Part shown: positions 18,737 through 55,180 of the stretch, piece after piece
How the letters are laid out: each line of letters begins with the position of its first letter
How positions within the stretch are numbered: position 1 is the first letter of the stretch
Source: Siphonodentalium dalli
Taxonomy: Eukaryota > Mollusca > Scaphopoda > Gadilida > Siphonodentaliidae
Direction of reading: 5' to 3'
NCBI GenBank assembly: GCA_032622095.1
Contig: CP136064.1
Coordinates: 256,721,863-256,785,862, forward strand
DNA: 64,000 nt
Notes under the pieces: model-generated
The model's database searches: none
The model's input: only the letters and a program-made list of their open reading frames with translations
What the model was told of the DNA's origin: nothing
Position numbers and translations under genes: made by a program

Positions 18737-18912
18737 CCCTGTGTCAATGCATTATCTTATATATGCAAGTCTCCCACATGGATCCTCGCATGTATAAGAA
18801 AATACATGGGCCTAACAATATTTGCCTTCACCTTGTAAGCCAGTGTATTCACTTATATATATGCGAGGCTCCTTATGGGAGAGTCGCATATATAAGAGAA
18901 TGCACTGGCACA
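18737..18912. mobile_element. Decayed two-hairpin cassette
   Basis: A left hairpin (18737-18812, starts CCCTGTG-tcaatgcatt) and a right hairpin (about 18840-18910, ends 'gaatgcactggcac') are diverged versions of the 69-bp hairpin found in families A and B. Neither the TTAA/CCCTTT ends of A nor the GTGACCCGCC ends of B flank it, so it may be an old free-standing cassette. Confidence 0.75.
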
Positions 18913-19053
18913 ATCATGCTATTTAAAGGGTTTGATACAGTATCACAACAATCACTTGTATCAAATTTCAAAAAGAAATTCAGGACTGATTTTGAGAAAA
19001 TTCATTTCAAAATACCAGCAAATATTGGCAATACGTGCATCTGGCCATTCAAG

Positions 19054-19490
19054 GTACTCAATCCGATCAGACCGTCCCCATATCATCAAGATACAACAAC
19101 AACAACATTTCTGCAAAATACCCTTTAGTTATCAGAATCGATTTATTACAACAAAAATAATGCTAACCACTGTCAACTATGGTATCAAAACTATGGTATG
19201 TTAAAAAAAATATGGCCGTATTATCACAAATGTATCACAAATTTGACCGTACTACCACTTGATTTTATATAGAGTTATCCATCTTCATCCGCAATTTTGT
19301 CCTAGATCCTCCGTTTGACAACGTGTTTCTGTGCCCATATTATTACACATCTCGAGAAATAACAAACTTCAAAAATCGATATCTGATCACTCTGAGCTTT
19401 GATGGGTGGGTTCCTCGACTCGAATAAAATATTTTTTACCCCCAAAGCCAAAGAAATAGTAATTTTGGAGCGTCTGATCGGATTGAGTAC
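19054..19490. mobile_element. Inverted-repeat element upstream of the HtrL exon
   Basis: 'gtactcaatccgatcaga' at 19054 is matched in inverse by 'tctgatcggattgagtac' ending at 19490. Its right part (about 19397-19475, 'gatgggtgggttcctcgact') recurs at about 29003-29080, which confirms that it is a dispersed repeat. It ends about 30 bp before the splice acceptor of the HtrL exon. Confidence 0.6.
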
Positions 19491-19521
19491 ATTTAAGATC
19501 ATCCAATTCGATTCATTTCAG

Positions 19522-20421
19522 CTAAAGTTCAGTGCATCCAGTAATCTAAAGCATGATGACATCACTTTTGTGACAGCATTCTTCAACCTCGGGAGCTTCC
19601 AGAAAGGACCCAATATTGAGTACGTGTACACACCGGATATGTACTTAAAGTGGATGTCCGGATTCGCCAATATGAAAAATCCTCTCGTTGTGTACACTGA
19701 TGACGGAGTAACAGCATCCATGATGAGGGATATAAGAAGAAAGTTTCAACATATAACCAGGATTATAAAAATATCACGGAAATCGTTGTGGGCATTTGAT
19801 ATTTCTAAAGAAATTAAAGATATATATTCTCAAGAAAACTATCCAAAGTTTTATCCTAACACCGTGAATGAAAACTATTCTTGCTCTATGCATGCCAAGT
19901 ATGAGCTGGTTAACAGAGTTGCGCAAGAAAATATGTTCAAGACGAAGTACATCGGATGGATTGACATGGGATATTTGAGAGATATTGTTATCGAAGGGGA
20001 TGACGTCATGTTTCCGTTAGTACCGCTCGACGCAGACGACACAAAGGTATCCTTTTCCCAGATCGATGAACCGGAAGTAGGTGTGACTAAAGAAGAGATT
20101 ATTTTAACCAATAAATTTTGGGTAGGTGGCGGAATGTTTTATGGGATACCGGAAGTTGTGATGACGTTTACGAAGGACTACATGCGCGCGATAAACGAAC
20201 TTATCAAAAGACGACTAATAAACACTGACCAACAGGTTATATACTCCTTATATGCTGGTTGCCTAGATGTGAAACCGAGGGTGCAAATACACGCGCATAC
20301 TAGCCATAGAGATAATGTCGTCTGGAAATGGTTTTATTTGGGATATCTACTCCGAGAACCGTGGTTGATATCTACAAGGACTAACTTGTCACTCGCATAT
20401 TACATGCATAGCCAAATGTGA
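19522..20421 (+). CDS. HtrL/YibB-family protein, terminal exon
   Basis: The encoded 299 residues match the HtrL (YibB) family, which in animals occurs as variable-copy, glycosyltransferase-like proteins of unproven activity. With L at 19522 as residue 1: DITFVTAFFNLG (13-24) is the N-terminal family box. PLVVYTDD (54-61) is the 'L-V-V-Y/F-T-D' box. KTKYIGWIDMG (140-150) is the W-x-D-x-G box. FWVGGGMFYG (199-208) and NTDQQ (234-238) are the late conserved segments. The open frame extends upstream to an ATG at 19399, but those 41 codons come from a dispersed repeat. 'ttcatttcag' ending at 19521 is a good acceptor, so I start the exon there (phase 0). The upstream exon, probably carrying a signal anchor, is not seen. 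The frame has no break and ends in TGA. Confidence 0.75.
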   Translation, partial: LKFSASSNLKHDDITFVTAFFNLGSFQKGPNIEYVYTPDMYLKWMSGFANMKNPLVVYTDDGVTASMMRDIRRKFQHITRIIKISRKSLWAFDISKEIKDIYSQENYPKFYPNTVNENYSCSMHAKYELVNRVAQENMFKTKYIGWIDMGYLRDIVIEGDDVMFPLVPLDADDTKVSFSQIDEPEVGVTKEEIILTNKFWVGGGMFYGIPEVVMTFTKDYMRAINELIKRRLINTDQQVIYSLYAGCLDVKPRVQIHAHTSHRDNVVWKWFYLGYLLREPWLISTRTNLSLAYYMHSQM

Positions 20422-20586
20422 TATGGATAATAATCTGGACTCACCCCATTATTTTTGCGCTAACACTGCGCCAATGCATTCTCTTATATATGCGAGTCTT
20501 CTAAAGGAGGCATCGCATATATAAGAGATTATATTGGCCTAATGCATTGACAAATATGATATAGATAGTAATCTGGACACACCCCA
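20419..20586. mobile_element. Single hairpin flanked by ~30-bp direct repeats
   Basis: One hairpin (about 20470-20540; 'gccaatgcattctcttata' against 'tataagagattatattggc') has a different loop, 'tcttctaaaggaggca'. It lies between two near-identical 30-bp stretches, 20419-20448 and 20557-20586, both ending in 'caccca'-like sequence ('taatctggac' shared). The direct repeats could be an unusually long target duplication or a local duplication around the hairpin. Confidence 0.6.
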
Positions 20587-20589
20587 TAT

Positions 20590-20791
20590 GTGACCCGCCA
20601 TATCAAATCCAGTCGTAAGTCGGGATTTTTTTTACCCTGTGCCAATGCCAATGCATTATTAAAAATTGTTAGGCCAATGCATTCTCTTATATATGCGAGG
20701 CGACCTATGGTCGACTCGCATATATAAGAGAATGCATTGGCACAGGGTAAAATAATCCCGACTTACGACTGGATTTGATATGGCGGGTCAC
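20590..20791. mobile_element. Family B MITE, copy B1 (left hairpin lost)
   Basis: Terminal inverted repeats of about 45 bp start GTGACCCGCCATATCAAATC and end in its complement at 20791. The left hairpin is reduced to 'ccctgtgccaatgccaatgc'; the right 69-bp hairpin is intact with loop GCGACCTATGGTCGA. It has no coding frame and would depend on another element's transposase. Confidence 0.9.
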
Positions 20792-21434
20792 AAATAATGA
20801 AACTGGGGGTCCACCTTCACGTTTCATTAGGATTAACATGATTGTCATTTCATCCGCATAATGGCTTACTAAAAACAATATGATACCTTGTCTGCCTTCA
20901 AATTATCAAGGTATATTCAGCTAGTATATCTATAACTCTGTATGACTATATCGGATACTTTTTACGTGAAATTTTGCGTTAGAGTAATGAATAAATTTAT
21001 TTAAACAAATGTACATGAGGTCCCATTCAACCATTGAGTAGTTTTGTCTATATGTTTATTTTCTGGAATGGCCTGGAATGGCCTGGAATGGCCGCAATAA
21101 AATAAGCTGTGCCTGAGTTTTGTGTCCATTTCAGTAATGAATAAATTTATGTAAACAAATGCATATGAGGTCCCCAGAGGGTGAATTTAGTGATGCTAAG
21201 TAGCACAGCGGTCTATAATCACCAAATTCACCCTCTGTTGACCTATATCATTTTCAGTACAACCGTATTTAGATTTTAATGAATAAATTTATTTATACCA
21301 TAAGTGTCCATGTTAGTGTGTGTTGTAATGTTGTAAATTTCAGCTGTACACCCTATTATGGGTATAAATTTCAGCTGTACACCCTATTATGTGTATAAAT
21401 TTCAGCTGTACACCCTATTATGGGTATAAATTTC
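20792..21434. repeat. Cluster of short tandem repeats, no gene
   Basis: 'aatgaataaatttat' recurs at about 20985, 21135 and 21278, a degenerate ~147-bp tandem. 'ggaatggcct' is repeated three times at 21064-21094. 'agagggtgaatttagtga' at 21176 is inverted at about 21222-21238. A 32-bp unit containing 'cagctgtacaccctattatg' is repeated three times at about 21338-21433. Confidence 0.75.
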
Positions 21435-22478
21435 TACTATGGGTGTAAATATTCAAACGTCATTCCATGGGCTAATCGTTTATACATGCTGCGTGTAGGG
21501 TACTTTGTGGGTAGGCGCCCCATTATATGGGTGTGTGACTCCTATTCAGTGGGTGATTATATCACGCCTATTGTATACCCTTAAAGGCTCACTAAATTAG
21601 TTCTCCTTAATTGACAGGCATCTCCTGCACGGGTTAATAATCTGGGGGCACGTTTCAACTTTCGGGTCTCTCTTCGGATACAGAAAACAGCAATAGGGAT
21701 CTTATGCAATAAAAGATATCGCAGTCACATAGAGCCGGTGTTTAAAAATCCAACACCACTTAAATTCCATATGACCTGTATCATCTTCAAATCGCACTGT
21801 TCATGTACGATGGAAAAACAGAAATCTCCGGCCGTATTTCGAAAATGATTTTAAGAACGTGTATATTCCTATATCAACCACACGACAGTCCGGCAACTTG
21901 GCTACTACAATTCCATCTGGACAGTACCTATCTAGAGTCCGGAAGGCGACTTTCGTTTGGTTTTCTTTTTCTTGTCAGTTTATTGGGGTCCAATTTTTCG
22001 AAATTATGTTACTGGCACAGCTCAATATTATGTCATCTTGGTTTGGAACACTGTTGGGGACGTGCATAACATTTGCGATGGAATTTTCTTAAAACCTATA
22101 GTATTTCCCATTGCTGCAAAGATGTTATCAAACATAAAACACGAGAATAACAGAACACATACTGCTCATGAAAATATAGATGCTTAAATTGAGAATTTGG
22201 GCCGACGAATCATCATAGAGAGGGGTCTATTTTGATTCACCGTTATTAATGGATATCTGGAACGCAGGATGTTATGTAAAACTATCATACAAACATTCAG
22301 AGATTTTGTTCGTATAATCTAGCTCTTTCCAAAAGATCGATATTACGTTTTTATAACGGAATATAACAATACTTATTATATATGAGCATAAACTTTCGTC
22401 TAAAAGTCCCATACTAAATCATACGGAAAATAATTTGATAAATCACGATATCTACTTGATTTAATAGGCAAGATGGGT
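21435..22478. other. No gene assigned; overlapping open frames at 21803-22187
   Basis: Three short overlapping plus-strand frames lie at 21803-22187. One (21957-22187) contains RNYVTGTAQYYVILVWNTVG, which is protein-like but not recognised. I cannot join them with a convincing splice pattern. The rest is AT-rich DNA without visible structure. Confidence 0.3.
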
Positions 22479-22850
22479 TAAAGTGATGTGAAACACTCCG
22501 GTATGGTGAACAAATATAAATGGAGAATAATTTTGTTCAAAGTAGTAATTTTTACAAATAGTATATTCAAATTGACAACACACACCATCATTCTTATATC
22601 TGAATTAAATGCAGTGACTCTCGGTGGCGAAATCGTTTTCGTTAGTTTATCGCCGATATATGCGCCCCGGATCGAGTAGTAAATATTTACAATTGAGCGT
22701 AGTTCTGATGATGTTTTCTATGGAGTGGTACCGTCGATTTGCTTCAAATTTTCGTCGATGTTAGTAGAATGTTACATGCCTCCAGTTGCCGTAGCGCCCG
22801 AATACTAACTGATCAGTTTCACACACCCGAACAAGTACATAATATGTCTT
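22479..22850. repeat. Dispersed repeat F, copy 1
   Basis: Homologous along its length to about 47045-47395 in the same orientation. Shared blocks include 'gaaacactccggta', 'ttcaaagtagtaa' (tcaaagtagtaa in copy 2), 'gcgaaatcgtttt', 'gagtagtaaatatttacaat' and 'cacacccgaacaagtac' (cacgcacccgaac in copy 2). No open frame is common to both copies, so it is non-coding. Confidence 0.8.
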
Positions 22851-22890
22851 TAATACCAAGACTTTGTCAGGCGACGTACTGAGTTATTAA

Positions 22891-23282
22891 CCCTTTACCC
22901 AACATAAGGGCCCTGTGCCAATGCATTCTCTTATATATGCGAGTCGACCATAGGTCGCCTCGCATATATAAGAGAATGCATTGGCTTAACACATTAAAAA
23001 TTATAAAATTGTTAAAGAATGTAAGAAAAAATGGTAAAAAGTGTTAAAAAAAGATTTTGTTTAGGCCAATGCATTCTCTTATATATGCGAGGCGACCTAT
23101 GGTCGACTCGCATATATAAGAGAATGCATTGGCACAGGGCATAACTGTAACTATCACAATGTGGTCAAGGAGCCGGTTCCAATGATATCCATATTTGTAT
23201 GGTTCTATTGAGACAGACCGAAGATATTTTAGGCTGTTGAAGCTTTATTTGGCCGGTTTTGGCCGGTTTGTTGGGTAAAGGG
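22891..23282 (+). mobile_element. Family A MITE, copy A1 (392 bp, TTAA target)
   Basis: It starts CCCTTTACCCAACA after TTAA (22887-22890) and ends TGTTGGGTAAAGGG before TTAA (23283-23286). Inside are hairpin 1 at 22917-22985 (loop TCGACCATAGGTCGC), an AT-rich spacer with 'taaaattgttaaagaatg', and hairpin 2 at 23065-23133 (complementary loop). A unique right flank follows with 'ggagccggttccaatg' and two copies of 'ggccggtttt'. Length and TTAA fit a non-autonomous piggyBac-class element. Confidence 0.93.
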
Positions 23283-23765
23283 TTAATGGGAATTGTAAAT
23301 CACTGGGTTTTTCCAAGGATAAAGTATCTACATTGTTGTTCATTTGATGGATCCATGTATATATACACGAGTCAGTAAGGTGTTTCAGGCCTATATGTGG
23401 CTTGGCAACATTGGTAGATATAGAGGATTTCACATGAGTTTCTATTTTATACGGAATTTATCAACCGAGTTCACTAAATTCGATTTGAGCCGAGGTTTAC
23501 CGAGGCTCAAATAGAATTTAGAGGACGAGGTTGATAACTTACGCATAAAGTAGGACGAGTGTGAGATACCTTTTATCACATGATCAAATAAACCCGAAGC
23601 AACGCGAAATATTCATCGAAAACAACAATCATAAACTACAGCGATCGCAAGTTATTTGAAGAACGCCGTGACGTCATCGCACGCGCTGTTATTAAACGTG
23701 TCTATTACCGATAATTATGAAACTGCTTTTATGGCCAAATTATGTGATAAAATATAATAAAACAC
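23283..23765. other. No gene seen
   Basis: AT-rich DNA with a weak inverted pair around 23477-23520 ('gatttgagcc' and 'ggctcaaata'). No reading frame of note. Confidence 0.4.
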
Positions 23766-23879: not shown

Positions 23880-24722
23880 TATAATAACAAATTTTCACCA
23901 CCCTGCTTGACACGAGCAGTGTATGTCTGTTATTTCAGCACTGCGTGTAAACTTCGTTTAAAAAGTATTTATTCCATGTAATGTCATTATATATATACAG
24001 TTACAACTATAAGAAGAATCAAGATTTCATAGATCGGACCCGACAGCAAGTGTATGTGCTTATATTATTCGTTTCCGTGGATGATTTCGCCCATCCCACC
24101 ACGCGGCAGCAGCCAATATTAAAGGATGAGTCTGTGTTTGTGTTTTGTGATATCAGGTGTTGATAACGAGCACGTGGATACAAGAGATTACATTTTATCT
24201 ACCATTTCATACGAAATTCCCTGATACAATTGGCGATAACGAATTGGCGATAAAAACATTCGTATCGTTACTGCAGTTGCGATCCAAGGTGCTCGTGACG
24301 TCGTTGACTGGTTCAAAATCATGAATGAACTGACATCACATAAATCGCGTGAAAAATCAAAACGACATTCCAACGTATATTCTTGCGTACTATAAACAAA
24401 TATTTCCAAGGTTTTAACATTATTTGATTGCCTACCATCATGGGTATTATGGTATAACATATCACAGAGTAACTAATATGTTTTTGTTCAGTATTTATTA
24501 TAAGTGTAAGAGATTGTGTCCATTGAATACAATTTCCGTTAACTTGCAGGTTGTGAGAATTTAGCAAAGCGAGCTAATCGCGTGACACAGATACATTTGC
24601 AGGTTGTGAGAATTTACTCAAGAAAGCTAATCGTCGGACACAAATTCAGCAGTTTTTGGCATTTAAGAAACTCCTAAAATGTAATTTGTGCGGTGGATTC
24701 TGTCACACCAATGGTAGATAAA
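23880..24722. repeat. Two ~58-bp direct repeats in otherwise featureless DNA
   Basis: 'tgcaggttgtgagaattta' occurs at about 24545 and 24599, each followed by an 'aagc(g)agctaatcg' variant and 'gacacaga/gacacaaa'. The remainder of this stretch shows no gene. Confidence 0.55.
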
Positions 24723-24889
24723 TGTGTTATATACACAATGTGTTTGTAACGATTAATGTATCGCGACTCGGCTAGTTTCGTGGCCATATAGCGACTCGGC
24801 GACCAAGGTCGCCTCGTCGCTATATGGCCACGAAAACTAGCCTCGTCGCGATACATGAATCGATACAAATACATTGTGTATATAACACA
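24723..24889. repeat. Inverted-repeat element (167 bp)
   Basis: 'tgtgttatatacacaatg' at the left pairs with 'cattgtgtatataacaca' at the right. Towards the centre 'tcgtggccatatagcgac' pairs with 'gtcgctatatggccacga', with loop 'tcggcgaccaaggtcgcctc', itself partly self-complementary. The whole element is close to one long hairpin. Confidence 0.75.
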
Positions 24890-25249
24890 TATATATGCAT
24901 GCGTGGTGGGAAAGGCTGACGATAGGATACTGCAGTTTTCTTGTATAAACTTATAGTGTAGTCGTTGCGGTGATTTTGGAAGGTGAACCTAGAAATAATT
25001 GTTATAAAGCCAGTTTTTGTGTCATCTTGACCGGGAATGTTTGGACAATGTAACATAATGATGTCTACTAAACTTAAATTCGCTATCATTCGATAAGTAA
25101 GCTGGCAGTTTGAAAAATAAGGCTCAAATTTTGCATATTTCTAGGAAAACTAGGCATCAGCCTAGTACAGTGGAACTGTGGTGTCGGAATTATGCTGAAG
25201 TCACATTCTCACGACCAACAGTTAGAATTTAATATATAGAGGTCATGGG
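24890..25249. other. No gene seen
   Basis: AT-rich DNA; short frames only and no repeat detected. Confidence 0.4.
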
Positions 25250-25472
25250 TAGTTCGAACTATGTAACAGGGTGCTTTTATGTTAAGTATTGGTATGATAA
25301 GCTAATGTGCACCCTGATAAGTTGATCTGATGGTGCTGTTCCTGTCATTCTCAAATTAATCATTAATGTGAGAATGACAGGAACAGCACCATCAGATCAA
25401 CTTATCAGGGTGCACATTAGCTTATCATACCATTACTTAACATAAAAGCACCGTGTTACCTAGTTCGAACTA
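25250..25472. mobile_element. Near-perfect hairpin element flanked by TAGTTCGAACTA
   Basis: Two arms of about 95 bp ('gataagctaatgtgcaccct', 'gatctgatggtgctgttcct' and complements) meet at a short centre with 'attaatcattaat'. The 12-base palindrome TAGTTCGAACTA lies at both ends (25250-25261 and 25461-25472). Because it is self-complementary, it could be the outermost inverted repeat or a 12-bp target duplication. No coding frame. Confidence 0.85.
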
Positions 25473-31879: not shown

Positions 31880-33442
31880 GCCTCAAAAAGAGGAAATTTG
31901 TAAATACGTTAGATGCACCAAATGCACCAAAACATTTGCACAAGGTGGAGGGACTAGACATTTTATCCCTAAATGCAGATAGTCTGTCAAACAAAATGAA
32001 TGAGCTCAGACACTTAGTTGAAGAAGAGAAGTATGACATAATCTGCATCACAGAGGTTAACCCTTTACCCAACAGAAGGGCCCTGTGCCAATGCATTCTC
32101 TTATATATGCGAGTCGACCATAGGTCGCCTCGCATATATAAGAGAATGCATTGGCTTAACACATTAAAAATTATAAAATTGTTAAAGAATGTAAGAAAAA
32201 ATGGTAAAAAGTGTTAAAAAAAAGATTTTGTTTAGGCCAATGCATTCTCTTATATATGCGATGCGACCTATGGTCGACTCGCATATATAAGAGAATGCAT
32301 TGGCACAGGGCATAACTGTAACTATCACAATGTGGTCAAGGAGCCGGTTCCAATTATATCCATATTTGTATGGTTCTATTGAGACAGACCGAATATATTT
32401 TAGGCTGTTGAAGCTTTATTTGGCCGGTTTTGGCCGGTTTGTTGGGAAAAGGGTTAAGTCGAAGAAAAGTAAGGACATCCTACCTGCGTTATATACCTTA
32501 GACGGTTACATCATGATCCACAAGAACTTAACCAGTAACAAAGGAAGAGGAGTCTTGATGTATGTGAAGGCGAATATCTCTGCAGAAGAGCAAATTATAA
32601 ACGAAGAACTGAGTGAAGCTGTACGGATAACAGTTAAACTAGAAAAAGGGACAAAATGCTGATATGAGTTGTATATAGCAGTCCTAACACAAGTACAGAA
32701 GAAAATGATGACAAAATAAACAAAACAATAAAGGAAATATGCAGAAATCGGGATTATTCACACATTCTCCTCGTGGGAGATTTTAACCATCCATCCATTG
32801 ATTGGAAAGTTCAGACAGCTAAAAACAAGAAAGGAGAAGATTTCATCAATACTGTAAATGAAAGCTTCTTAACGCAACACATCCTAGAGCCAACAAGAGG
32901 AAGATTAGGATAGAGGGCAAGTACACTAGATCTGGTACTGACAAATGAAGAAAATATGATTACCAACATAAAGATTTGCAGCCCACTAGGAAAGAGTGAC
33001 CACTCCATGATTGACTTCAACTTCAAGCAAGTGATACACACAAATAAATAACTTAAAGAAAAAAGTCTACTCGGCTGGAAACTAAACACAGATGAAGAAA
33101 GATCTTGACATTGTCTGGAACAATTTTTTAGAGGACTGCAAAGTTGAAAGAAATATACCAGAGAGAACAAAATCAACAAAATCTAAAAACAGAATGCCAC
33201 TTGACAAAAAAAACCAGGGAGCTTGTGAAGAAGAAACATAGAATGTGTACAAGATACATGGAAAACAGAACAGAAGAGAATTATAAAAAGTACACTCGCC
33301 TGAGAAATCAAGTAAGGACAGCAACAAGACAGAAACAGATAGTACACGTGAAAGACATTGCCGACAAGGCGAAAACTAACCCCAAAAAAATCTGGGACTA
33401 CATAGCGAGACGCTCAAAAACAAGAAATGGTGTGGGAGTATA
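31880..33442 (+). pseudogene. LINE endonuclease domain, interrupted by MITE A2
   Basis: Upstream of the MITE the frame reads GLDILSLNADSLSNKMNELR and YDIICITEV, the N-terminus of the apurinic-type endonuclease (N near the start, catalytic E in the ITE box). Downstream it continues KSKKSKDILPALYTLDGYIM, GRGVLMYVKAN, then in a shifted frame LLVGDFNHPSIDW (G-D-F-N box), STLDLVLTNEEN and KSDHSMIDFNF (S-D-H box). The linker ends with KIWDYIARRSKTRNG at about 33430. Frameshifts and stops make it non-functional. Removing 32057-32453 joins GAG-GTT to AAG in frame. Confidence 0.88.
32061..32453 (+). mobile_element. Family A MITE, copy A2 (in LINE endonuclease, TTAA target)
   Basis: CCCTTTACCCAACA at 32061 and 'tgttgggaaaaggg' ending at 32453 lie between TTAA 32057-32060 and TTAA 32454-32457. 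Both 69-bp hairpins and the AT spacer are present. The LINE frame before and after matches if the element and one TTAA are removed, which fixes the ends and the 4-bp target. Confidence 0.97.
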
Positions 33443-35653: not shown

Positions 35654-35681
35654 AATTGTGAGCGGACAATAACGGGAATAT

Positions 35682-36126
35682 GTGACCCGCCATATCAAAT
35701 CCAGTCGTAAGTCGGGATTTTTTTACCCTGTGCCAATGCATTCTCTTATATATGCGAGTCGACCATAGGTCGCCTCGCATATATAAGAGAATGCATTGGC
35801 CTAACAATTTTTTTAAATAAATGTTTCTGACAATTTTTAGGACATAAAATAAAAAACACCCATTACCCTGCAGGGAGCCCCACACATATATAGAAGCATA
35901 TAGAAGAGTGCCGTCTGCTCATGTTTGTCTGGGGCTCTGAGTGGGTGAAATTATAAAATTGTTAAAGAATACAAGAACAAATTATTAAAATTGTAAAAAA
36001 TTGTTAGGCCAATGCATTCTCTTATATATGCGAGCCGACCTATGGTCGACTCGCATATATAAGAGAATGCATTGGCACAGGGTAAAACAATCCCGACTTC
36101 CGACTGGATTTGATATGGCGGGTCAC
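35682..36126. mobile_element. Family B MITE, copy B2
   Basis: GTGACCCGCCATATCAAATC ends in inverse orientation at both sides. Two 69-bp hairpins lie inside CCCTGTG and CACAGGG. The spacer contains 'ctgacaatttttaggacata' and 'gagcccca'-type sequence shared with B4. A 28-bp sequence, 'aattgtgagcggacaataac' plus 'gggaatat', lies directly on both sides (35654-35681 and 36130-36157). Confidence 0.93.
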
Positions 36127-36157
36127 AATAATTGTGAGCGGACAATAACGGGAATAT

Positions 36158-36883
36158 ATCAACTCACGACTTACCAGATGTACGCTATTTAAAATGTGTT
36201 TCCATTGTGGCCCGCGCCATAAACGGAATAACGGATAAGAGTCCACTGTCGGCTTAATTCGGAATAAAAAAATCCAATAAGAATCTATGTTAATAGTGTA
36301 TAGGTCGTTTATTAACCTACGAAGATAAGTTTATATCTTTGCTGGAGCGGCTTTCTTGCCATGTCCCCATTCTACGTCTAGTGCGGCGAAGCGTACTCAG
36401 TACCAGTGGCTTTGCTGGGGGATCACAAATTGGCGCGAGATTTCAGTGGCATTCCACTCAGCAGTCACACGCCGCTTAATTCGAAACCTCGCGCTACTGT
36501 GGGAACAGGACCACCCGACACAGTGACAACCCGATCCGATCGACCCGAAAATAAATCGATCCGAGACAAACCGACACAGGGACAACCTTACCCAAATAAC
36601 TTCTGTATTTAATGTATTTAATTTAATTTAAAAAAATGAAACGTGGGATACACCTTACGGTCAGACAACAAACATATGAAGAGATAGTACAAATGCAGAA
36701 TGATTCACCACGGTCGTATGTTGAACTTATTATCTGAACATTTCCCAAGGGAATTACTCGTCAATTAGTATTTAGTAAAGAGAGGGTTAAATAAATGTTA
36801 TGCAACGTCAGCTACAGCATTGGCCCTTTCAAAACTAAAGCATCATGTATAGTTATTCCATAGGAAATGCTCAGATAATATAT
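36158..36883. other. No gene seen; family C scrap at about 36710-36790
   Basis: 'gttgaacttattatctgaac' (36720), 'atttagtaaagagaggg' and TTAA (36787-36790) match the right end of the family C MITE at 45817-46073. A matching left end is not clear. The rest is unrecognised. Confidence 0.45.
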
Positions 36884-37231
36884 GTGACCCGCCATATCAA
36901 ATCCAGTCGTAAGTCGGGATTTTGTTACCCTGTGCCAATGCATTCTCTTATATATGCGAGTCGACCATAGCTCGCCTCGCATATATAAGAGAATACATTG
37001 GCCTATATAGAAGCATATAGAAGAGTGTCGTCTGCTCATGTTTGTCTGGGGCTCTGTATTGGGTGAAATTATAAAATTGTTAAAGAATACAAGAAAAAAT
37101 TATTAAAATTGTAAAAAATTGTTAGGCCAATGCATTCTCTTATATATGGTCGACTCGCATATATAAGAGAATGCATTGGCACAGGGTAAAACAAATCCCG
37201 ACTTACGACTGGATTTGATATGGCGGGTCAC
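36884..37231. mobile_element. Family B MITE, copy B3 (right hairpin with loop deletion)
   Basis: Same ends as the other B copies, inside 'atat' on both sides. The left hairpin is complete apart from one loop change (catagctcgcc). The right hairpin has lost about 13 bases ('cttatatatggtcgactcg'), a deletion across the hairpin tip. Confidence 0.92.
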
Positions 37232-37590
37232 ATATAAGTTCAACAAACGACCGTTTGTTGAACTATCTAAACATTTCCCTCAATAAATAAATATGGCTCC
37301 TTTTGCACTAGTGTTTATCTGTCGTCTGCTTTTACCACATTAACATACCTCCAAAATTAATGACTAATCGACAATTCCAATGTATGCTGTTTATCTGAGT
37401 GGGAGAATCTATTTAGTTAGTATAAGAAATGGTTAATAATGAAAGGTATTTTCGTTACTGGTCCCTTCAATTCCGTGATTTCGAAGTCAACATAAATTCT
37501 TGCGTGGTCAAGCTGGCGTACCCGGATAAAATAGCTTTTGTTGTGTAATTTTTATAATCAACTTGCCTATTCTACCAGTGATATCATGTC
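37232..37590. mobile_element. Decayed family C relative, then no gene
   Basis: 'gttgaactatctaaacattt' and 'tgtttatctgtcgtctgctt' at about 37257-37330 resemble family C. No coding frame. Confidence 0.4.
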
Positions 37591-37594
37591 TTAA

Positions 37595-37985
37595 CCCTTT
37601 ACCCAACAGAAGGGCCCTGTGCCAATGCATTCTCTTATATATGCGAGTCGATCATAGGTCGCCTCGCATATATAAGAGAATGCATTGGCTTAACACATTA
37701 AAAATTATAAAATTGTTAAAGAATGTAAGAAAAAATGGTAAAAAGTGTTAAAAAAAGATTTCTTTAGGCCAATGCATTCTCTTATATATGCGAGGCGACC
37801 TATGGTCGACTCGCATATATAAGAGAATGCATTGGCACAGGGCATAACTATAACCATCACAATGTGGTCAATGAGCCGGTTCCAATGATATCCATATTTG
37901 TATGGTTTTATTGAGACAGACCCAAGATATTTTAGGCTGTTGAAGCTTTATTTGGCCGGTTTTGGCCGGTTTGTTGGGTAAAGGG
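37595..37985 (+). mobile_element. Family A MITE, copy A3 (391 bp, TTAA target)
   Basis: TTAA at 37591-37594 and 37986-37989, CCCTTTACCCAACA ends, two hairpins and the same right-flank block as A1. It differs from A1 by a handful of substitutions, for example one base in the first loop (gatcatag). Confidence 0.95.
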
Positions 37986-38013
37986 TTAAGTTAATTGTCG
38001 AAAATGAACTAAT

Positions 38014-38175: not shown

Positions 38176-39354
38176 AAAGTGTGCGTCTTTCAATGGCCGG
38201 CGTTCCAAAATGAGGGGAGTTACTATCGGAATTATGCACAGTGAAGTTCATTCGTAGCTGCGGTTTACATTTTGTTGAGAACATAATTATAACATATTAT
38301 GGACTGTCAAATATTTGCATTGGACTGGCTTAAAATATAAATGTCGCGTGCAATGGGAAAATCCCAATCATTCTGGCTGGGCTGGAGACAATACTGGAAT
38401 CGAAATCGAAATTCGTGATGCAAGCAGACGTTATTATATTGCGTTTAAATTATCCTAATATTACATAGTACATACGTGAATATGATAATCCTCAGATATC
38501 CTTCTATTTTCATGAATCGACAAGAAACACATACATATGAACAAAGCAGAAGATACATTCAGGTTATCGCAAATTCGGTCGATGGTGAAAGCTACATGCT
38601 GACGTTGTTCGTCGAGTTTCGTTGAAATCGACATAATGACATTTTATGAATGAAATGAACATGATGAAATCGACAAGCTTCTTCGTATAGTACACATCTC
38701 AATCGGATTGCGCACACAGCGTCAATAATATAATGGTTAATTTCAGTAAAAATACTCCCCTCTAGACAACAACCAACAGTCTTGAATTTTGAATACTTTT
38801 AGTTTGATGTTGGTAGTTTATATTCTGTAATAATTCGTACCAAAGGAACGGCTTTTAAAAGTTTTTCATTTAGGTTTTAAGTCTGAGTCGGTGAGCTCGT
38901 AGTCTGTTAGCATTGTGAATCTCTGGTTTCTCACATGCCTTGGTGTATGATATGATTGACCTAATTTATACGTGAAATTGCTATAGGACCCACTCTGTCG
39001 ATGAACCCGTGTGCATGTCTGCATGGAGTGTAATATATCATAATCACACCACGATATAAGGCATAACTTAATATTATTTGATGGGAATACGCATCTATGA
39101 AGTTATTATATAGGACTAAAAAGACACATATATATCCTAGCTTATGCGTGTGTTTAGCTGTGGTTCGTTAATTACGCTAGCGTCATATTATCAAAACGAT
39201 GTCACAGTTTTCGTGAGAATAAAATGAGAATTCCCGTTCTATAGGAATTTCTAAAAGTAAATTTCATCGTGCGCAGATATATATGACCATTTATTAAATT
39301 TAAATGCTTCCCCATTAAACAGTGGGAAATTGCCACAACGAAAATATCATATTT
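38176..39354. other. No gene seen
   Basis: About 1.2 kb of AT-rich DNA without motif-bearing frames or recognised repeats. Confidence 0.4.
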
Positions 39355-39812
39355 GTGACCCGCCATAACAAATCCAGTCGTAAGTCGGGATTTTTTTTAC
39401 CCTGTGCCAATGCATTCTCTTATATATGCGAGTCGACCATAGGTCGCCTCGCATATATAAGAGAATGCATTGGCCTAACAATTGTTTACAATTTTAATAA
39501 TTTGTTCTTGTATTCTTTAACAATTTTATAATTTCACCCATACAGAGCCCCAGACAAACATGAGCAGACGACACTCTTCTATATGCTTCTATATAAGTGT
39601 GGGGCTCCCTGCAGGGTAATGGATGTTTTTTATTTTATGTCCTAAAAATTGTCAGAAACATTTATTTTTAAAAAATGATAAAAAATTGTTAGGCCAATGC
39701 ATTCTCTTATATATGCGAGGCGACCTATGGTCGACTCGCATATATAAGAGAATGCATTGGCACAGGGTAAACAAAATCCCGACTTACGACTGGATTTGAT
39801 ATGGCGGGTCAC
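39355..39812. mobile_element. Family B MITE, copy B4
   Basis: GTGACCCGCCATAACAAATC left end and the matching right end at 39812. Both hairpins are intact. The spacer is shared with B2 in inverted orientation ('gagccccagacaaacatgag', 'cctaaaaattgtcagaaaca'). Confidence 0.93.
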
Positions 39813-40089
39813 ATGTATTGTCTAGACAGACATTAAAGATATCATATTAATATTCAAAAATGATATCTTCACTGTAGCTTTCTTCCGGTATAAGCAGCTG
39901 AACTGTAGCTTGCCGAGTGATGTTATGACGTCATCACTTGAAAGCGTTTTGCTACCTATCCGCTGATCAGTTTCCGTGAATTGTTTACTTTGTTGTGCTA
40001 TTATAATTGAAAATGCTACATAATGTATCAACTTTAACCATTAAAAATAATAATTATCGACATGGTTGAAGCATATAATAAATAGAACA
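39813..40089. other. No gene seen
   Basis: Short AT-rich stretch with a minus-strand open frame of 69 codons lacking motifs. Confidence 0.35.
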
Positions 40090-40701: not shown

Positions 40702-40705
40702 TTAA

Positions 40706-41097
40706 CCCTTTACCCAACAAACCGGCCAAAACCGGCCAAATAAAGCTTCAACAGCCTAAAATATCTTCGGTCTGTCTCAATAGAACCATACACATATGGA
40801 TATCATTGGAACCGGCTCCTTGACCACATTGTGATAGTTACAGTTATGCCCTGTGCCAATGCATTCTCTTATATATGCGAGTCGACCATAGGTCGCCTCG
40901 CATATATAAGAGAATGCATTGGCCTAAAAAAAATCTTTTTTTAACACTTTTTACCATTTTTTCTTACATTCTTTAACAATTTTATATTTTTTAATGTGTT
41001 AAGCCAATGCATTCTCTTATATATGCGAGGCGACCTATGGTCGACTCGCATATATAAGAGAATGCATTGGCACAGGGCCCTTCTGTTGGGTAAAGGG
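40706..41097 (-). mobile_element. Family A MITE, copy A4 (392 bp, TTAA target)
   Basis: The same element as A1 in reverse orientation, with the 'ggccggtttt' block complemented at the left. TTAA at 40702-40705 and 41098-41101. Both hairpins are intact. Confidence 0.95.
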
Positions 41098-41101
41098 TTA
41101 A

Positions 41102-44269: not shown

Positions 44270-45784
44270 ATGGAAGCGTATCTTCTGCCACTTGTGCTAT
44301 TTTGTCATTTCCACGCCACATTTGGCGCGAACGTACTATTAATGACGCCCCCACTCTACAGTCATTGTATGAAATTTGGACACATTGCTGACTCTCTAAC
44401 AGAACTCGGTCACAATGTATATGCCTACATCCCGACGAACTGGGACTCGTCGAAATGTTTGGACAATAAGAACATCAAGATTATAACATACCGATATAAT
44501 CATGAAGTTGTCGAAAACATATTAACTGATTTTAGTAAGAGTGGGACAGGAGTTGGACCACGGAAAATGTTGACAACATTGAGAGCATCAAGTAAAGAGC
44601 TGTGTTCTGGATTACTGGGCGATGGTGAAAGTTTAATTAAAGTTCGGGAATCTAACATTGACTTCGTTATAGTGGATGCTTTTCCTGGATCGCGTTGCTT
44701 TTTCCTGGTTCCTTATAGACTAGGAATCAGATACGCATCATTGTCGATGACTTTCAACTGGTTCGAATCTGGAAAACCTTTTCTGCCAAGCGTTGAACGT
44801 TTGTTCATGTCTACATACCCACCGCACATGACGTTCTTCCAACGCTTCAATAACGCCATCGGGACTCTTCTGAAGCCGTTCGTCTTTCCATATATTATAA
44901 TGAACACAGAAGAATTTGAATTCGCACCGGAACTCTCATATCTTCAGTACATATCCCTGATAAGGGATTCCCAACTATTTATTCAAGACGATGACGTCAT
45001 TCTGTCAGGGCCGACAACTGTGATGCCAAATACTGTTCATACCGGTGGATTCTCCCCGCGCGATGGCGGAAATCTGTCTGCAGAATTCAAACATTTCATC
45101 GATTCTTCGTCTAATGGTGTTGTTGTCGTGTCGTTCGGCAGTATGCTTGACCTTGCTGGCGACACGAAATTTGACATTTTCAAGCATGTCTTCGGCAAAC
45201 TCAAGGTCAAGGTCATATGGAGGACGAATGCTCCCATTAACTCACCAAACATTCTCGCTACATCGTGGATGCCACAAAACGCTATTCTTGCGCACCCAAA
45301 CGTCAAATTGCTGATATTCCACTGCGGGAGGAATAGTTTCTATGAAGCTCTGTACCACGCCATCCCCATGTTATGTCTGCCGATCGTTGCCGACGAGCTT
45401 TCAGTTGCAATTAACGTGGAGTATCGCGAGATTGGGCGTTGGATCCAAACAGACCATCTCACAAACGAAACTTTCGAGGCCACAATGAAAGACGTTCTAA
45501 GTAGACCTTCTTTCAAAAGGAATATACAGAGGTTTTCTCGGATATATAGAGACTTGCATAAAGAATCTGCTGGACGAATCGCCGCTCATGCATTAGATCA
45601 CGTGATTTCTCACGGATCCGCTCATTTGCGACCACATTCACTTGATATGTCGGCGTCAGCGGCCCTTCAGATAGATATTTTATTATCAATGTTCGTCATT
45701 GTGTTCCTGCTAGCAATTGTATCGTGCTATCTTTGCTGTTACTGTTGCAAAAGATTGATGGGACACAAATATAAAAACGACTAG
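44270..45784 (+). CDS. UDP-glycosyltransferase (UGT, GT1 family), single exon
   Basis: The 504-residue protein would transfer sugar from a UDP-sugar to small lipophilic molecules, acting in the ER lumen. Residues 1-19 are a signal peptide (LLPLVLFCHF core). H32 (YSHCMKFGH) sits where the catalytic histidine lies, and D136 (FVIVDAFPG) where its partner aspartate lies. VVVSFGSMLD (286-294) starts the C-terminal donor domain. The UGT signature runs from W333 (WMPQNAILAHP) through FHCGRNSFYEA to PIVADE (376). A transmembrane helix at about 468-488 is followed by a short cytosolic tail ending KYKND, a KXKXX ER-retrieval signal. Length is normal for the family. The frame is complete and intronless. 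Odd points: cysteine in HCGRN where HGG is usual, and DE instead of DQ at the end of the signature. The start is chosen because it begins the signal peptide. Substrate is unknown. Confidence 0.93.
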   Translation: MEAYLLPLVLFCHFHATFGANVLLMTPPLYSHCMKFGHIADSLTELGHNVYAYIPTNWDSSKCLDNKNIKIITYRYNHEVVENILTDFSKSGTGVGPRKMLTTLRASSKELCSGLLGDGESLIKVRESNIDFVIVDAFPGSRCFFLVPYRLGIRYASLSMTFNWFESGKPFLPSVERLFMSTYPPHMTFFQRFNNAIGTLLKPFVFPYIIMNTEEFEFAPELSYLQYISLIRDSQLFIQDDDVILSGPTTVMPNTVHTGGFSPRDGGNLSAEFKHFIDSSSNGVVVVSFGSMLDLAGDTKFDIFKHVFGKLKVKVIWRTNAPINSPNILATSWMPQNAILAHPNVKLLIFHCGRNSFYEALYHAIPMLCLPIVADELSVAINVEYREIGRWIQTDHLTNETFEATMKDVLSRPSFKRNIQRFSRIYRDLHKESAGRIAAHALDHVISHGSAHLRPHSLDMSASAALQIDILLSMFVIVFLLAIVSCYLCCYCCKRLMGHKYKND

Positions 45785-50300: not shown

Positions 50301-50454
50301 CCAGCGGGATTTGTTAACACTGAGGCCTATGTAAATCATTTGGTGTATTGTAACCTTTTATCCCACTGCTGCGGTAAAAGGATTCGTAAAATTTCAAAAT
50401 GGGAACAACTGGCTATCTGCGTAAATTAACGTAAGTGAAATTGCACGGTGACAC
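47396..50454. other. No gene identified (3 kb)
   Basis: AT-rich DNA with short frames lacking motifs. A G run of 13 lies at about 49128-49140. 'aatatacctgga', 'aatatacctgaa' and 'cataccagaata' form a weak local repeat near 49507-49550. No splice chain recognised. Confidence 0.35.
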
Positions 50455-50540
50455 GCGCTTCGCATCAGACGATTGAAGTTAAGCAACGCCGAGCCTACAT
50501 AGTATTTTGATTGGGACATTTTCCCCAATCGGTAAATGTA
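50455..50540 (+). repeat. 5S-rRNA-derived fragment (pseudogene or SINE head)
   Basis: 'gattgaagttaagcaacgcc' followed by 'gagcctacatagtatttt' and 'gattggga' aligns by eye with the 5S rRNA segment containing the A-box and C-box promoter region (the 'gaagctaagc', 'ggcctggttagta' and 'ggatggga' blocks), with many substitutions. The 5' third of 5S rRNA is not clear. It is most likely a decayed 5S pseudogene or the head of a 5S-derived SINE. Confidence 0.55.
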
Positions 50541-50741
50541 ATGCCAAACATGGGCAATGCCATTGTCATTAAGAACATGTTTAGCTGTGATACCACATAC
50601 CGATGTAGATCACATATAGATGTGTACATATATGCTTTGAATGCATGATAGAGTCACGACACAGTTCAACTTACTTTGGTCAACCTGATCACTGGGACCT
50701 GTAACTAATATAGTTAGTATGTCATATAATTATGTGTTATA
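50541..50741. other. No gene seen; possible body of the 5S-derived element
   Basis: 'gggcaatgccattgtcatta' and following bases show no promoter or coding motif. It could be the SINE body, but no second copy is present in this window. Confidence 0.25.
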
Positions 50742-50904
50742 TATAAGGATTAACTGTCATGTGGACTGTTTTTATGGAGATGTAACCGTGAGGTAAGTGG
50801 ACATAACTTGTGTAAAACCCGAAGGGTTTTACATACAAGTTATGACCACTTACCTCCCGGTTACATCTCCATAAATATAGTCCACATGACAGTTAATCCT
50901 TATA
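50742..50904. repeat. Long near-perfect hairpin element
   Basis: 'aaggattaactgtcatgtgg' and 'tatggagatgtaacc' at the left pair with 'ggttacatctccata' and 'ccacatgacagttaatcctt' at the right. Even the centre 'gtaaaacccgaagggttttac' is self-complementary. Almost the entire 163 bp folds on itself. Confidence 0.85.
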
Positions 50905-51189
50905 TTTATATACATTTAGCGAAAAAGCCACTTTTGTAAATGTATTTAAATCGAAAAGTGTATTGTGACAAAAACAGCTCAAAATACCCATAGCACCCTT
51001 GGCAAAAGTTAATAGGAACAATTTCTCTTAATATTGAAACCCGATGATGTATTAAGTCAATCCTGCGCGAGTCCAAATGCGCCCAAAACATTACGCGTTC
51101 GTCTTTCCAAACCCAATGGCGTATCGATGGTGTTATGAGCTTGGTGTTATGAGCCGTTGCGCATTCACCGAGAAATAACTGCAACTAGC
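50905..51189. other. No gene seen
   Basis: A minus-strand open frame at 50906-51184 has no recognisable motif. Confidence 0.35.
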
Positions 51190-51480
51190 CACGTGGGCGC
51201 TCTTTAAAACACTTCTCCAAATATGTCCGTTATTTCGTCAAAGACACCTTTTCAAATATCTCCGTTATTTCGTTTATTAAAATAATTTCATATTTATATA
51301 TTTCGTTCTATATTTCTCCCTATTTCGCTATTTCGCTGTATGTTCCTATTTCGAGTTTTCGTTCTATTTCGCTATTTCGCTATTTCGCTGTATTTTCCTA
51401 TTTCGATTTTCGATGTATTTTCCTATTTCGCTTTTTCGTTTTATTTTATATTTCGATATTTCGCTATATTTGACATATTA
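51190..51480. repeat. TATTTCG-type simple repeat
   Basis: Repeated 'ctatttcg', 'gttatttcg' and 'gctatttcgctgtat' units, degenerate in spacing. Open frames across it are compositional. Confidence 0.85.
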
Positions 51481-52059
51481 TGGGATATGGTATTATATGA
51501 TACCCAACATTCTGATATTCAATCGAACATCACGTGCCTCCCGTGGTCGCGATTGTATACCAAGAGCCATCATATCGTGGACTCCGATAAGATATCTCTT
51601 GGTAGTCAAGCTTGTGCGTATTGCCTGCTTTCAACATATACAAAAATGGGATAATTATTTATAGTGAAAATAAAAGTCAACCTATTTGCCCACGTTTCGT
51701 GGTGATTATGGATTTACATACTATATATTATAATTTCTCACATCTATACCCGCGACGAATGCCTCACGTCCCTTTAGCAATCGGCGACATGTTCCTTGTG
51801 GGTGTGTGTAATGAGCTGGATTGTGTAGATAAGCTGATAACACGCACCCAATATACGGTAGAACTGATTATTGCATCGCTGATCGGGCTACGCGGTGATG
51901 ATGTAGTTACGACCTGCCCGATACATGTACAGCTACCGCACAAGTAAGTGGAGTGCTATGTTTCGTTGAAAAAGGACAATGTCGTCGGAGGATGGATGTT
52001 GCCGTCAGTTCATTCGCAAGCGAGGTGAAGTCACGGTTAGTTTATGTGTTACCAGCAAA
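51481..52059. other. No gene assigned; open frame 51612-51947
   Basis: The plus-strand frame ends with AIGDMFLVGVCNELDCVDKL and IIASLIGLRGDDVVTT. It is protein-like but not recognised, and no clear acceptor or donor defines an exon. Confidence 0.25.
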
Positions 52060-52185
52060 TAAAATAATTGAAATTATGCCCCTTAATTGGTATTTGTGTA
52101 GGGAAACTAGAGTCACCATAAAAAATTAGTTTATGCTGACTCGAGTTTCCCTACACAAATGTCAATAAAGGGGCATAATTTCAAT
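52060..52185. repeat. Inverted-repeat element (~125 bp)
   Basis: 'attgaaattatgcccctta' and 'tttgtgtagggaaact' at the left pair with 'agtttccctacacaaatg' and 'ggggcataatttcaat' at the right. The right side is followed by a second 'atttcaattattttatgaac' unit. Confidence 0.75.
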
Positions 52186-52558
52186 TATTTTATGAACGAA
52201 TTATTATTTCAATTATTTTATGAACGAAAAAAGAAATGCATAGATTGTTAATTCCGCGACCATTTGTGTGCGATTGTTCGCCAATCATATACGTTGGTCG
52301 CCAACTTGGGGAGGGTTGGTGTTACGCCGAGTTTTTGAATAACTGACGAGTTATGTCGTACATGTAGCTCACGATTTCTGAAATAACAATCGCTGAATTC
52401 TGTGGGAGCTCACGAGTTCTGTAGTAAATTCAACGAGTTATTTAGTAATATGAGGTCATGATTTCTGTACTTTTTTTTTCAAAAGACGCGTTTGGGCTTT
52501 ATACATTATTATATAGTAAATTCAATGTTTATTTGTGTAAGATTGTACGTGGCGGATG
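52186..52558. other. No gene seen
   Basis: Unrecognised AT-rich DNA up to the next MITE. Confidence 0.4.
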
Positions 52559-52562
52559 TTAA

Positions 52563-52954
52563 CCCTTTACCCAACAAACCGGCCAAACCCGGCCAAATAA
52601 AGCTTCAACAGCCTAAAATATCTTCGGTCTGTCTCAATAAAACCATACAAATATGGATATCATTGGAACCGGCTCCTTGACCACATTGTGATAGTTACAG
52701 TTATACCCTGTGCCAATGCATTCTCTTATATATGCGAGTCGACCATAGGTCGCCTCGCATATATAAGAGAATGCATTGGCCTAAAAAAAATCTTTTTTTA
52801 ACACTTTTTACCATTTTTTCTTACATTCTTTAACAATATTATAATTTTTAATGTGTTAAGCCAATGCATTCTCTTATATATGCGAGGCGACCTATGGTCG
52901 ACTCGCATATATAAGAGAATGCATTGGCACAGGGCCCTTCTGTTGGGTAAAGGG
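52563..52954 (-). mobile_element. Family A MITE, copy A5 (392 bp, TTAA target)
   Basis: Reverse orientation like A4. TTAA at 52559-52562 and 52955-52958, CCCTTTACCCAACA ends and both hairpins. Confidence 0.95.
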
Positions 52955-52958
52955 TTAA

Positions 52959-53427
52959 TGTTGTTGTATATATAGCTCAACTTGATGGTGGTCATTCGGC
53001 ACCCCGCCGTTTCTCGACTGATCGGGTCGTTGAAAACAATTGATATACAGGGATAAATTGTACCGATTGTTGTCACGGGATAAGTGCCGTTTACCTCAGA
53101 CGTCTTAAGTAGGCACTAATAAATGAATCATATAAAGAGCGTTCCTTGTCAGCTTAGAAAATATAAATACACAGGAGAACACGCGTGTGGCAGTTGGTTT
53201 GGTGATACGACACGAGTGTTCGCGTGGACGGGTAGAACGAGAAGCCGAGTCTCGAGTTGTATCCTTCCGTCATGGCACAAGTGACGCGTCGACAAACCTT
53301 ATTAACTCACGCTTCGTACTGTTTGGTAACACAACACCTGTCCTTGAATCTGAGAATTAAAAACAAACAGACTAACAATGTGTATTTAGGTAGATACACG
53401 ACGTGTTTTGGCATGTGTGCTGAGATA
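52959..53427. other. No gene seen
   Basis: No motif-bearing frame or repeat identified before the LINE tail at 53428. Confidence 0.4.
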
Positions 53428-53960
53428 AGATAAGATAAGATGATTTATTGCAATAGACCAATGGAGGCAGTTGCAAATAACAGTTAGTACATGAAAAGTT
53501 ACACATTAAAATAAAATACATGTAATAGGCATATGTACGATATATAATCCTTAGTATTATAAATTAATACTTTCAACGTGTATTTCCCCATATTGCCATT
53601 CTGTCTTTTTAGAAAGAATAACCGGATCATGTTACACAAGGAATTGATTATTTGTTTGTCCTTGTTTTTCATTATGAAGATGAACTTATCATCATCACTC
53701 ATGTTTATGAAATCTATGCTGTGCAATATTAAACAAGTCTATTCTAAAATCAGCGTACGCACTGCAATCCATAATAAAATGTTTTTATGTCACGGTTCAT
53801 CTCACATGTGACAAATTCTGTCTTTTAATGGCATTTTCGGTTGCGTTGTGTCGACCCTTTTCTATAGCTAAAATATGATTGCTAACACGTAGTCGAGTGA
53901 ACATCTCTCTTGCCTCTGACGATCGAACGTGCCTGAGGTACGGTTCTATATCATAATTGT
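53428..53960 (-). pseudogene. LINE polymerase C-terminus and 3' tail
   Basis: On the minus strand: EPYLRHVRSSEAREMFTRLR, RVSNHILAIEKGRHNATENA, then across small frame breaks KHFIMDCSAYADFRIDLF and SDDDKFIFIMKNKDKQII. This is the conserved LINE C-terminal arrangement: an R-x-R-x-S-x-H...E-x-G-R-H block, then H-F...C...Y...R, then a D-x-D-K-F box. The element ends with (TCTTA)n, seen on the plus strand as 'gataagataagataagat' at about 53430-53447. The rest of the element is absent (5' truncation), and stops make it non-functional. Confidence 0.75.
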
Positions 53961-54084
53961 GTGATGATGCTTATTTGTATAGGTGTGTCATAATAAGTAA
54001 TATACTGCTGTATTGTATTCGCTTTCATCGATAAATACATACTGGTTTTGACATCACACCTAATTGCTGTTATATATCGATGAA

Positions 54085-54190
54085 ATGAAAAAAATTAGAA
54101 TTTTATTTTTTTTAATAATAATGATTGCAGCAGCCTCTTATTGGATCACAGAACCGAAGACAGAGACCACTCCCCCGCAAAGATTACGAA
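54085..54190 (+). CDS. Candidate first coding exon with signal peptide or anchor
   Basis: ATG at 54085 opens a frame starting MKKIRILFFLIIMIAAASYW. The two lysines and one arginine followed by 13-14 hydrophobic residues are a typical signal peptide or type II signal anchor. A polar stem rich in T, P and E follows. The exon would end in 'ttacgaa' before a consensus donor, 'gtaagtg' (54191), in phase 1. Type II anchors plus stem are common in Golgi enzymes, including the kind of N-terminus that the HtrL exon at 19522 lacks, but nothing links the two. Downstream exons are uncertain. Confidence 0.5.
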
Positions 54191-54390
54191 GTAAGTGTAT
54201 CATCCTATGGATCATATTGTAACACTCTTGGTGCCTACATATTATGCACCAAGCTGTAAGTGCTATGGCAGCCTATACATTCTGAAACATTGGTTTATTG
54301 AAAACCACATTTCAAGTAACAAGGACCAGCCAATCCTGTTATGAATATTAGTTATCTCACACGTCTGACAAATTCGCTTTTTTTTTGCAG

Positions 54391-54428
54391 AATCGATGGA
54401 CAAACTGTTCCAAAATCATTTAAAATAA
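54391..54428 (+). CDS. Possible second exon (problematic)
   Basis: It follows a strong acceptor, 'cgctttttttttgcag', and is followed by 'gtatctt'. Joined in phase 1 it reads KSMDKLFQNHLK and would leave the correct phase for the 55412 exon, but its last codon is TAA. Either the donor is elsewhere, the exon is terminal in a short isoform, or the locus is broken. Confidence 0.25.
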
Positions 54429-54736
54429 GTATCTTTTTCCCGTATAACACCCCACCCCAATAATACATAACCGTGAATTGATTACAGGTTTGACCTCCTG
54501 GTCAAGTGGTCATTGATATGATACGTTATATTTTAGTCATTTTTGCGGTGTTCGGATAATCTGAACATATCTAGGAAAAGGCATGTTCGTGCATGTATCA
54601 AACATTTAACATCATATATATATTGCGAACTATTTTAATACTGGTTGCATTAGTTGTTCCAAAATCGAGTTCAATAGAGATGTCTATTCGTGTAGTTTTG
54701 CAAACACCAGCGCAGCCATTATTGATTTTCTTTTAA

Positions 54737-55180
54737 CCCTTTACCCAACAGAACGGCCCTGTGCCAATGCATTCTCTTATATATGCGAGTCGACCATATG
54801 TCGCCTCGCATATATAAGAGAATGCATTGGCTTAACACATATTAAAACTGATAAAATTGTCAAAGAATGTAGAAAAAGATTATAAAAAATGTTAAAAAAT
54901 GTAAGAAAAAATTATAAAATTGTTAAAGAATGTAAGAAAAAAATGGCAATTTTTTTTTTTAGGCCAATGCATTCTCTTATATATGCGAGGCGACATATGG
55001 TCGACTCGCATATATAAGAGAATGCATTGGTACTGGGCATAACTGTAACCATCACAATATGGTCAATGAACCGGTTCCAATGATATCCATATTTGTATGG
55101 TGTTATTGAGACAGACCGAATATATTTTAGGCTGTTGAAGCTTTATTTGGGCGTTTTTGGCCGTTTTGTTGGGTAAAGGG
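54737..55180 (+). mobile_element. Family A MITE, copy A6 (444 bp, TTAA target)
   Basis: TTAA at 54733-54736 and 55181-55184 with CCCTTTACCCAACA ends. Its spacer is about 50 bp longer than in A1-A5 because 'ttaaagaatgtaagaaaaa'-type sequence is repeated. It has more substitutions (loop 'catatgtcgcc', 'gtactgggc' in place of 'gcacagggc'), so it is the oldest A copy. It would lie in an intron of the 54085-55480 candidate gene. Confidence 0.93.

Follow-up and report, generated by a model that had tools for sequence, protein, structure and literature searches.

A double-hairpin cassette, here called X, recurs within a 64,000-nucleotide stretch of the genome of the scaphopod Siphonodentalium dalli (assembly GCA_032622095.1, contig CP136064.1, positions 256,721,863 to 256,785,862 of the forward strand; hereafter the window), where it lies inside miniature inverted-repeat transposable elements (MITEs) of different families. 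X consists of two hairpins in inverted order around an AT-rich spacer, with CCCTGTG and CACAGGG as its outer bounds. It is probably a core module of these non-autonomous DNA transposons, transferred between them and multiplied by its carriers, and not an active transposon today. Its spread to tens of thousands of places was apparently as a passenger of its carriers, rather than by jumping on its own.

The younger form of the hairpin starts with CCCTGT, followed by a 27-bp stem, one T.C mismatch, a 5-bp stem and an ATA loop. An earlier note on this DNA had described a perfect 27-bp stem with a loop that pairs again. The 27 paired positions and the 5-bp apical stem are indeed present, but the T.C mismatch is part of the consensus. 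The window contains 22 matches to the hairpin, spanning 18737-55037, which agrees with the approximately 22 copies claimed before. The further claim that all copies have the same hairpin holds for most of them, but those at 18737, 18839 and 20466 are diverged (81-85% identity). The loop core CGACCATAGGTCG, with up to 2 mismatches allowed, has 18 matches in the window against 0.55 expected from shuffles, and for the gapped hairpin core 19 exact matches were counted where 0 are expected. A scan of the window for inverted arms (arms of at least 16 bp, at most 2 mismatches, loop of at most 12) returned 27 hairpins, 21 of which belong to the X-hairpin family, while two base shuffles gave 1 and 0. 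Since the loop-core, gapped-core and arm-scan counts far exceed the shuffle expectation, a chance origin of the window hairpins is excluded.

Ten elements in the window carry X, six of family A and four of family B, confirming that the same cassette sits inside both families, and it occupies one internal position per family in all ten. The genome comprises 2.23 Gb in 9 contigs, from which we sampled 30 further 10-kb stretches at round-number positions. Together with the window, which had itself been picked for its repeats, the sampled sequence amounts to 364 kb. Strong hairpin matches (at least 50 bits) occur in 12 of the 30 sampled loci. The search for additional carriers, proposed in the earlier note as a test, uncovered a third family, C, and, from one copy, a further kind, D. 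Carrier C, a TTAA element, measures roughly 260 bp and has the ends TTAACCCTTTCATGACTGGAGCTTCCTGAAATTTTGCGAAAA and TTAACCCTTTCATGACTGGAGC..CATTAAAGA; its copies in better state hold X with a 27-nt spacer. Carrier D is a 462-bp TTAA element (L008:2840-3301). In a truncated copy, E (L023, near 2000-2130), the nine letters CATTAAAGA of the C2 flank adjoin a young-type hairpin. At least four carrier kinds thus hold X with the same edges, D being represented by one copy with half of X.

The ends of the carriers fall into different types. Of 11 A copies, 10 have TTAA at both sides, as do the single D copy and four of the eight C copies seen with both ends; the remaining four two-ended C copies show it at just one side, and in the eleventh A copy (L017) only part of the long end was matched. 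Terminal inverted repeats measure 18 bp in A (TTAACCCTTTACCCAACA), 26 bp at 92% in D and approximately 22 bp in C (by eye). TTAA and CCCTTT tips are common to A, C and D. CCCTTT tips are typical of piggyBac-superfamily MITEs, which these three carriers resemble in their flanks as well as their tips. In B, considered as a candidate TA-target (Tc1/mariner-like) MITE, TA lies directly at both sides in four of the seven copies having both ends. No likeness was seen between A ends and B ends, nor between A ends and C or D ends past the first 6-8 bases. Two side observations concern the carriers: one C copy (L025, 7468-8728) is interrupted by an insertion of about 1 kb that starts TAGAGATGGGCGGTA and appears hAT-like by eye, and an isolated 37-bp B end without X lies at L011 8125-8161.

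X itself has defined termini, since the carrier flanks end directly at the unit boundary. The flank stops at CCCTGTG (most C2 ends read TCCTGTG there), and the sequence directly outside this motif differs between carriers. Inside the boundary, homology extends to the spacers of A, B, D and E (76-93% over 32-79 nt), and one hairpin sequence is common to A, B and the D copy. It is therefore the whole unit, not a mere motif, that the carriers have in common.

We then surveyed the outer edges of X to see how often it lies beside a carrier. The 364 kb contain 65 hairpin pieces, 59 of which include the outer edge. The edge position was fixed by aligning each piece to the query, and the 45 bases immediately beyond it were compared with the carrier ends, the threshold being the 99% point among 1,500 random pieces. 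A carrier-end flank above this threshold was found at 54 of the 59 edges (B 15, C1 11, A2 11, A1 10, C2 6 and D 1), the carrier-end queries having been taken from members of the tested set and the D edge being that of the copy that defined D. The five failing edges are L011:2612, window 18839, L023:2073 (E), L025:4800 and window 20466; two of them have a carrier at the partner side, namely L011:2612 (17 bases of B) and window 18839 (C). The surroundings of the copy at L011 2612-2979 resemble another MITE (TTATTATCTGAACATTT), which is also present at window 36720 and 45967.

The exact young 39-mer, which covers the outer arm plus half the apical stem, occurs 56,234 + 55,925 = 112,159 times genome-wide, a number that, like the prefix counts that follow, does not equal a count of transpositions because some copies are arranged in tandem, as in an array on contig C1 with a period near 11,175 bp. 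KG followed by the 33-mer (the prefixes of A, with any loop) occurs 77,180 times, and Y followed by the 33-mer (any loop) 1,043 times. As a copy at a random site would be preceded by Y about half the time, this puts an upper bound near 2% of the young count on young X at random sites, unless X favours sites after A or G. The earlier note had suggested that the cassette was either captured or itself mobile. It is a discrete unit found in different carriers, as that suggestion implied, but the 54 of 59 carrier-flanked edges and the Y-prefix count (1,043 versus 112,159) speak against present mobility, and recent self-mobility of X is not supported. A DNA search of the same genome with most of the cassette returned no match; very common words were skipped in this search, which is thus no evidence of rarity. 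The array on contig C1 (G000) is large, with young 39-mers every ~11,175 bp near 820-921 kb, and another series, with a period near 7.9 kb, lies at C1 94.24-94.29 Mb.

We propose the following course of events. X would already have been the core of the old, TTAA-flanked and piggyBac-like family C. Later, a younger variant with the apical stem CGACC-ATA-GGTCG and a longer AT spacer would have become the core of A and D, which have TTAA ends, and the same variant the core of B, with its TGTGACCC.. ends and TA-like flanks. X keeps a single position in each of the 11 A copies, and likewise in every B copy seen; this suggests that it was transferred once into each family, presumably before amplification; the number of transfers is what we infer from these positions. 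The carriers' own ends, mobilised in trans by their own putative transposases, would then multiply carrier and X together. X may have entered a carrier by insertion or by a template switch at hairpin-bearing ends during gap repair. The fixed edges of X point to a unit event, and ordinary cut-and-paste insertion is disfavoured, as A shows no visible duplication. Our guess is that template switching at the hairpins during gap repair was the route of entry.

Several observations weigh against a passenger core that was transferred into its carriers. For three copies (L023:2073, L025:4800 and window 20466), no visible side reveals a carrier, although only E, at L023:2073, is of the young type; the longer flank of E gave no above-chance match to carrier ends. 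At L011:2612 (2612-2979), a young X is adjoined by only ~10-17 bases of B, followed by other sequence. The D copy holds the right half of X only. The earlier note had also proposed a search for A copies without the cassette; the A flanks joined directly without X gave 0 exact 25-base matches genome-wide, a search in which diverged copies are missed and which presumes that A looked the same before it held X. As no X-less A turned up in this directly joined form, the data do not show X inserting into an A element that already existed. No target duplication around X in A is visible by eye; B is symmetric at this point and cannot tell.

A, C and D may instead be diverged branches of one TTAA family that retained the core, with only B having obtained it externally through recombination or nested insertion. 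We regard this as a real, if minor, possibility. It would account for the tips common to A, C and D and for the partial similarity (by eye) of the C and D tips, and the young-type hairpin of E beside CATTAAAGA is a possible link from C to the young type, with the caveat that the longer flank is not above chance. However, the A ends are unlike those of C and D past the first 6-8 bases, yet the adjoining hairpin consensus is identical at 71 of 75 positions, and a transfer would still be required for B. Alternatively, X may be, or may recently have been, a transposon of its own, with CCCTGTG..CACAGGG ends and a preference for inserting into MITEs as its carriers. The absence of a target duplication in A makes this quite unlikely, as do the single internal position in 11 of 11 A copies, which suggests one event and not repeated insertion, and the Y-prefix bound, which leaves near 2% at most of young copies for random sites (unless A or G is preferred) while 54 of 59 edges are carrier-flanked. 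The unit boundary at CCCTGTG in A, B, C and D, the long inverted ends and the location of X near the carrier centre in B and C are nevertheless what such a transposon would predict.

A third way to explain the likeness of the hairpins is that they are merely palindromic transposase-binding sites, made alike by selection. In piggyBac ends, 19-bp palindromes, much shorter than the hairpins of X, are placed asymmetrically and bound by the transposase (PMC11707139), and the hairpin consensus of X is unchanged except for two compensated pairs. The identity extends over 75 bp, with the apical stem included, and reaches further as homology of the AT spacer; the flanks of B are TA-like, not TTAA. Taken together, this renders mere binding sites highly improbable. 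Exact 25-mer and gapped-hairpin patterns had no match in viral contigs or prokaryote genomes, the A and B tips had none in viral contigs, and Rfam gave none at gathering scores. A parvovirus-terminus reading was weighed on shape alone and dropped, with no search made.

Within X as a passenger core, the hairpins also bear on age and constraint. Consensus counts were restricted to ungapped 75-bp hairpins, 35 young and 8 C out of 53. Young hairpins differ from their own consensus at 0-3 of 75 positions (mean 0.74) and C hairpins at 4-16 (mean 9.75), and C1 ends (n=12) show a mean difference of ~10% from the query; C copies are more decayed than young-type copies. The two consensus sequences are identical at 71 of 75 positions, and the differences, at 36, 37, 45 and 46, form two compensated pairs. 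In a simulation, four random changes kept all 32 pairs complementary in 280 of 400,000 cases. Under unconstrained descent with C-like decay, 9.75 changes would be expected, and the Poisson probability of four or fewer is 0.03, which is modest evidence for constraint on the X lineage. The compensated pairs do not prove selection, because conversion between palindrome arms could yield them too. Covariation, assessed on 18 of the 53 hairpins, exceeded shuffles both in score (0.115 versus 0.077; 0/500) and in doubly changed cells (15 versus 7.4; 0/500), but this result is weak because the hairpin rows are related. The same hairpins had 3 doubly changed pairs, no excess over shuffles (403/500), which counts against constraint. 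It is conceivable, but in our view unlikely, that the double hairpin acts in cis as a portable 'amplifier' core, which would help any MITE that holds it, be selected in the master lineage while copies decayed, and be passed as a functional module between transposon superfamilies.

Table. Elements bearing X or a related hairpin in the window (window coordinates)
Element	Position	Strand	X	Remarks
Carrier A copy	22887..23286	+	22911..23139 (+)	TTAA ends, 24-bp left end, X, 147-bp right end; X reads CCCTGTG + hairpin, 79-nt spacer, inverted hairpin + CACAGGG
Carrier A copy	32057..32457	+	32081-32310	
Carrier A copy	37591..37989	+	37615-37842	
Carrier A copy	40702..41101	-	40849-41077	
Carrier A copy	52559..52958	-	52706-52934	
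Carrier A copy	54733..55184	+	54757-55037	Longer spacer, 131 nt, with repeated stretches
Carrier B copy	20589..20792	-		46-bp end repeats TGTGACCC..; X minus spacer and most of one hairpin
Carrier B copy	35681..36127	+	35726-36082	
Carrier B copy	36883..37232	+	36928-37186	Part of one hairpin deleted
Carrier B copy	39354..39813	-	39400-39767	
Carrier C copy, old and decayed	18695..18926	+	18737-18912	Loop type near CTCCC..GGGAG; left end match 18699-18736
Diverged single hairpin, 85%	20463..20545	+		No carrier shown; left flank loosely C-end-like only

The right end of the decayed C copy had no above-chance match to carrier ends. A perfect 28-bp direct repeat (35654-35681 and 36130-36157) brackets the B copy that starts at 35681 and far exceeds the expected target duplication, and an imperfect 46-bp direct repeat (87%; 20404-20449 and 20542-20587) brackets the diverged hairpin at 20463. 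The A copy at 32057 apparently lies within an endonuclease reading frame resembling that of a long interspersed nuclear element (LINE; by eye). A different single hairpin occupies 24718-24894, with arms of ~84 bp by eye, where the arm scan gave 29 bp with 2 mismatches; its tip, GGCGACC-AA-GGTCGCC, resembles the apical stem of X, and internal mismatches occur at two similar places. A MITE-like foldback with 91-bp arms (at most 2 mismatches) and a 1-nt loop lies at 25270-25452. The window further contains open reading frames with HtrL_YibB and UDP-glucuronosyltransferase domains (19399-20421 and 44270-45784), as well as reverse transcriptase domains and LINE-like reading frames, a content that points to an animal genome.

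If a non-coding core can pass between MITEs with different ends and targets, it is too simple to see each MITE family as derived by deletion from a single autonomous parent, and classifying them from internal sequence misleads. Because a single genome holds over 100,000 exact young 39-mers, selection, transfer and host effect become directly testable. The unusual part is that one core is common to TTAA ends and to the different, TA-like-flanked ends of B. Exact sequence strings had no match in papers, and no title or abstract opening on a single hairpin core present in MITEs whose ends are of different types was found in a literature search whose coverage excludes most subscription journals.

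The statement in the earlier note that no such system had been described was nevertheless too strong, since a flank/core-modular element, Cg_HINE (PMC7492417), and a MITE with a foreign module, MER6 (PMC6887750), are described in the parts of these sources that we draw on, and modularity of satellites and transposable elements in bivalves has been discussed (PMC5139131, likewise in part). MER6/MER6A is a mariner MITE carrying a V-SINE module, and as proposed for X, a foreign module has spread through multiplication of the carrier MITE; its module is derived from a short interspersed nuclear element, and that portion of the account includes no hairpin pair or second carrier superfamily. Cg_HINE elements are abundant, modular, non-autonomous Helentrons of the Pacific oyster, in which flanking and central modules are combined, some of them related between elements. 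The carriers of X resemble them in combining flank modules with core modules. In contrast, Cg_HINE belongs to a single superfamily, the Helentrons, and has a tandem-array core, whereas here an inverted hairpin pair is combined with both TTAA-type and TA-like-flanked ends.

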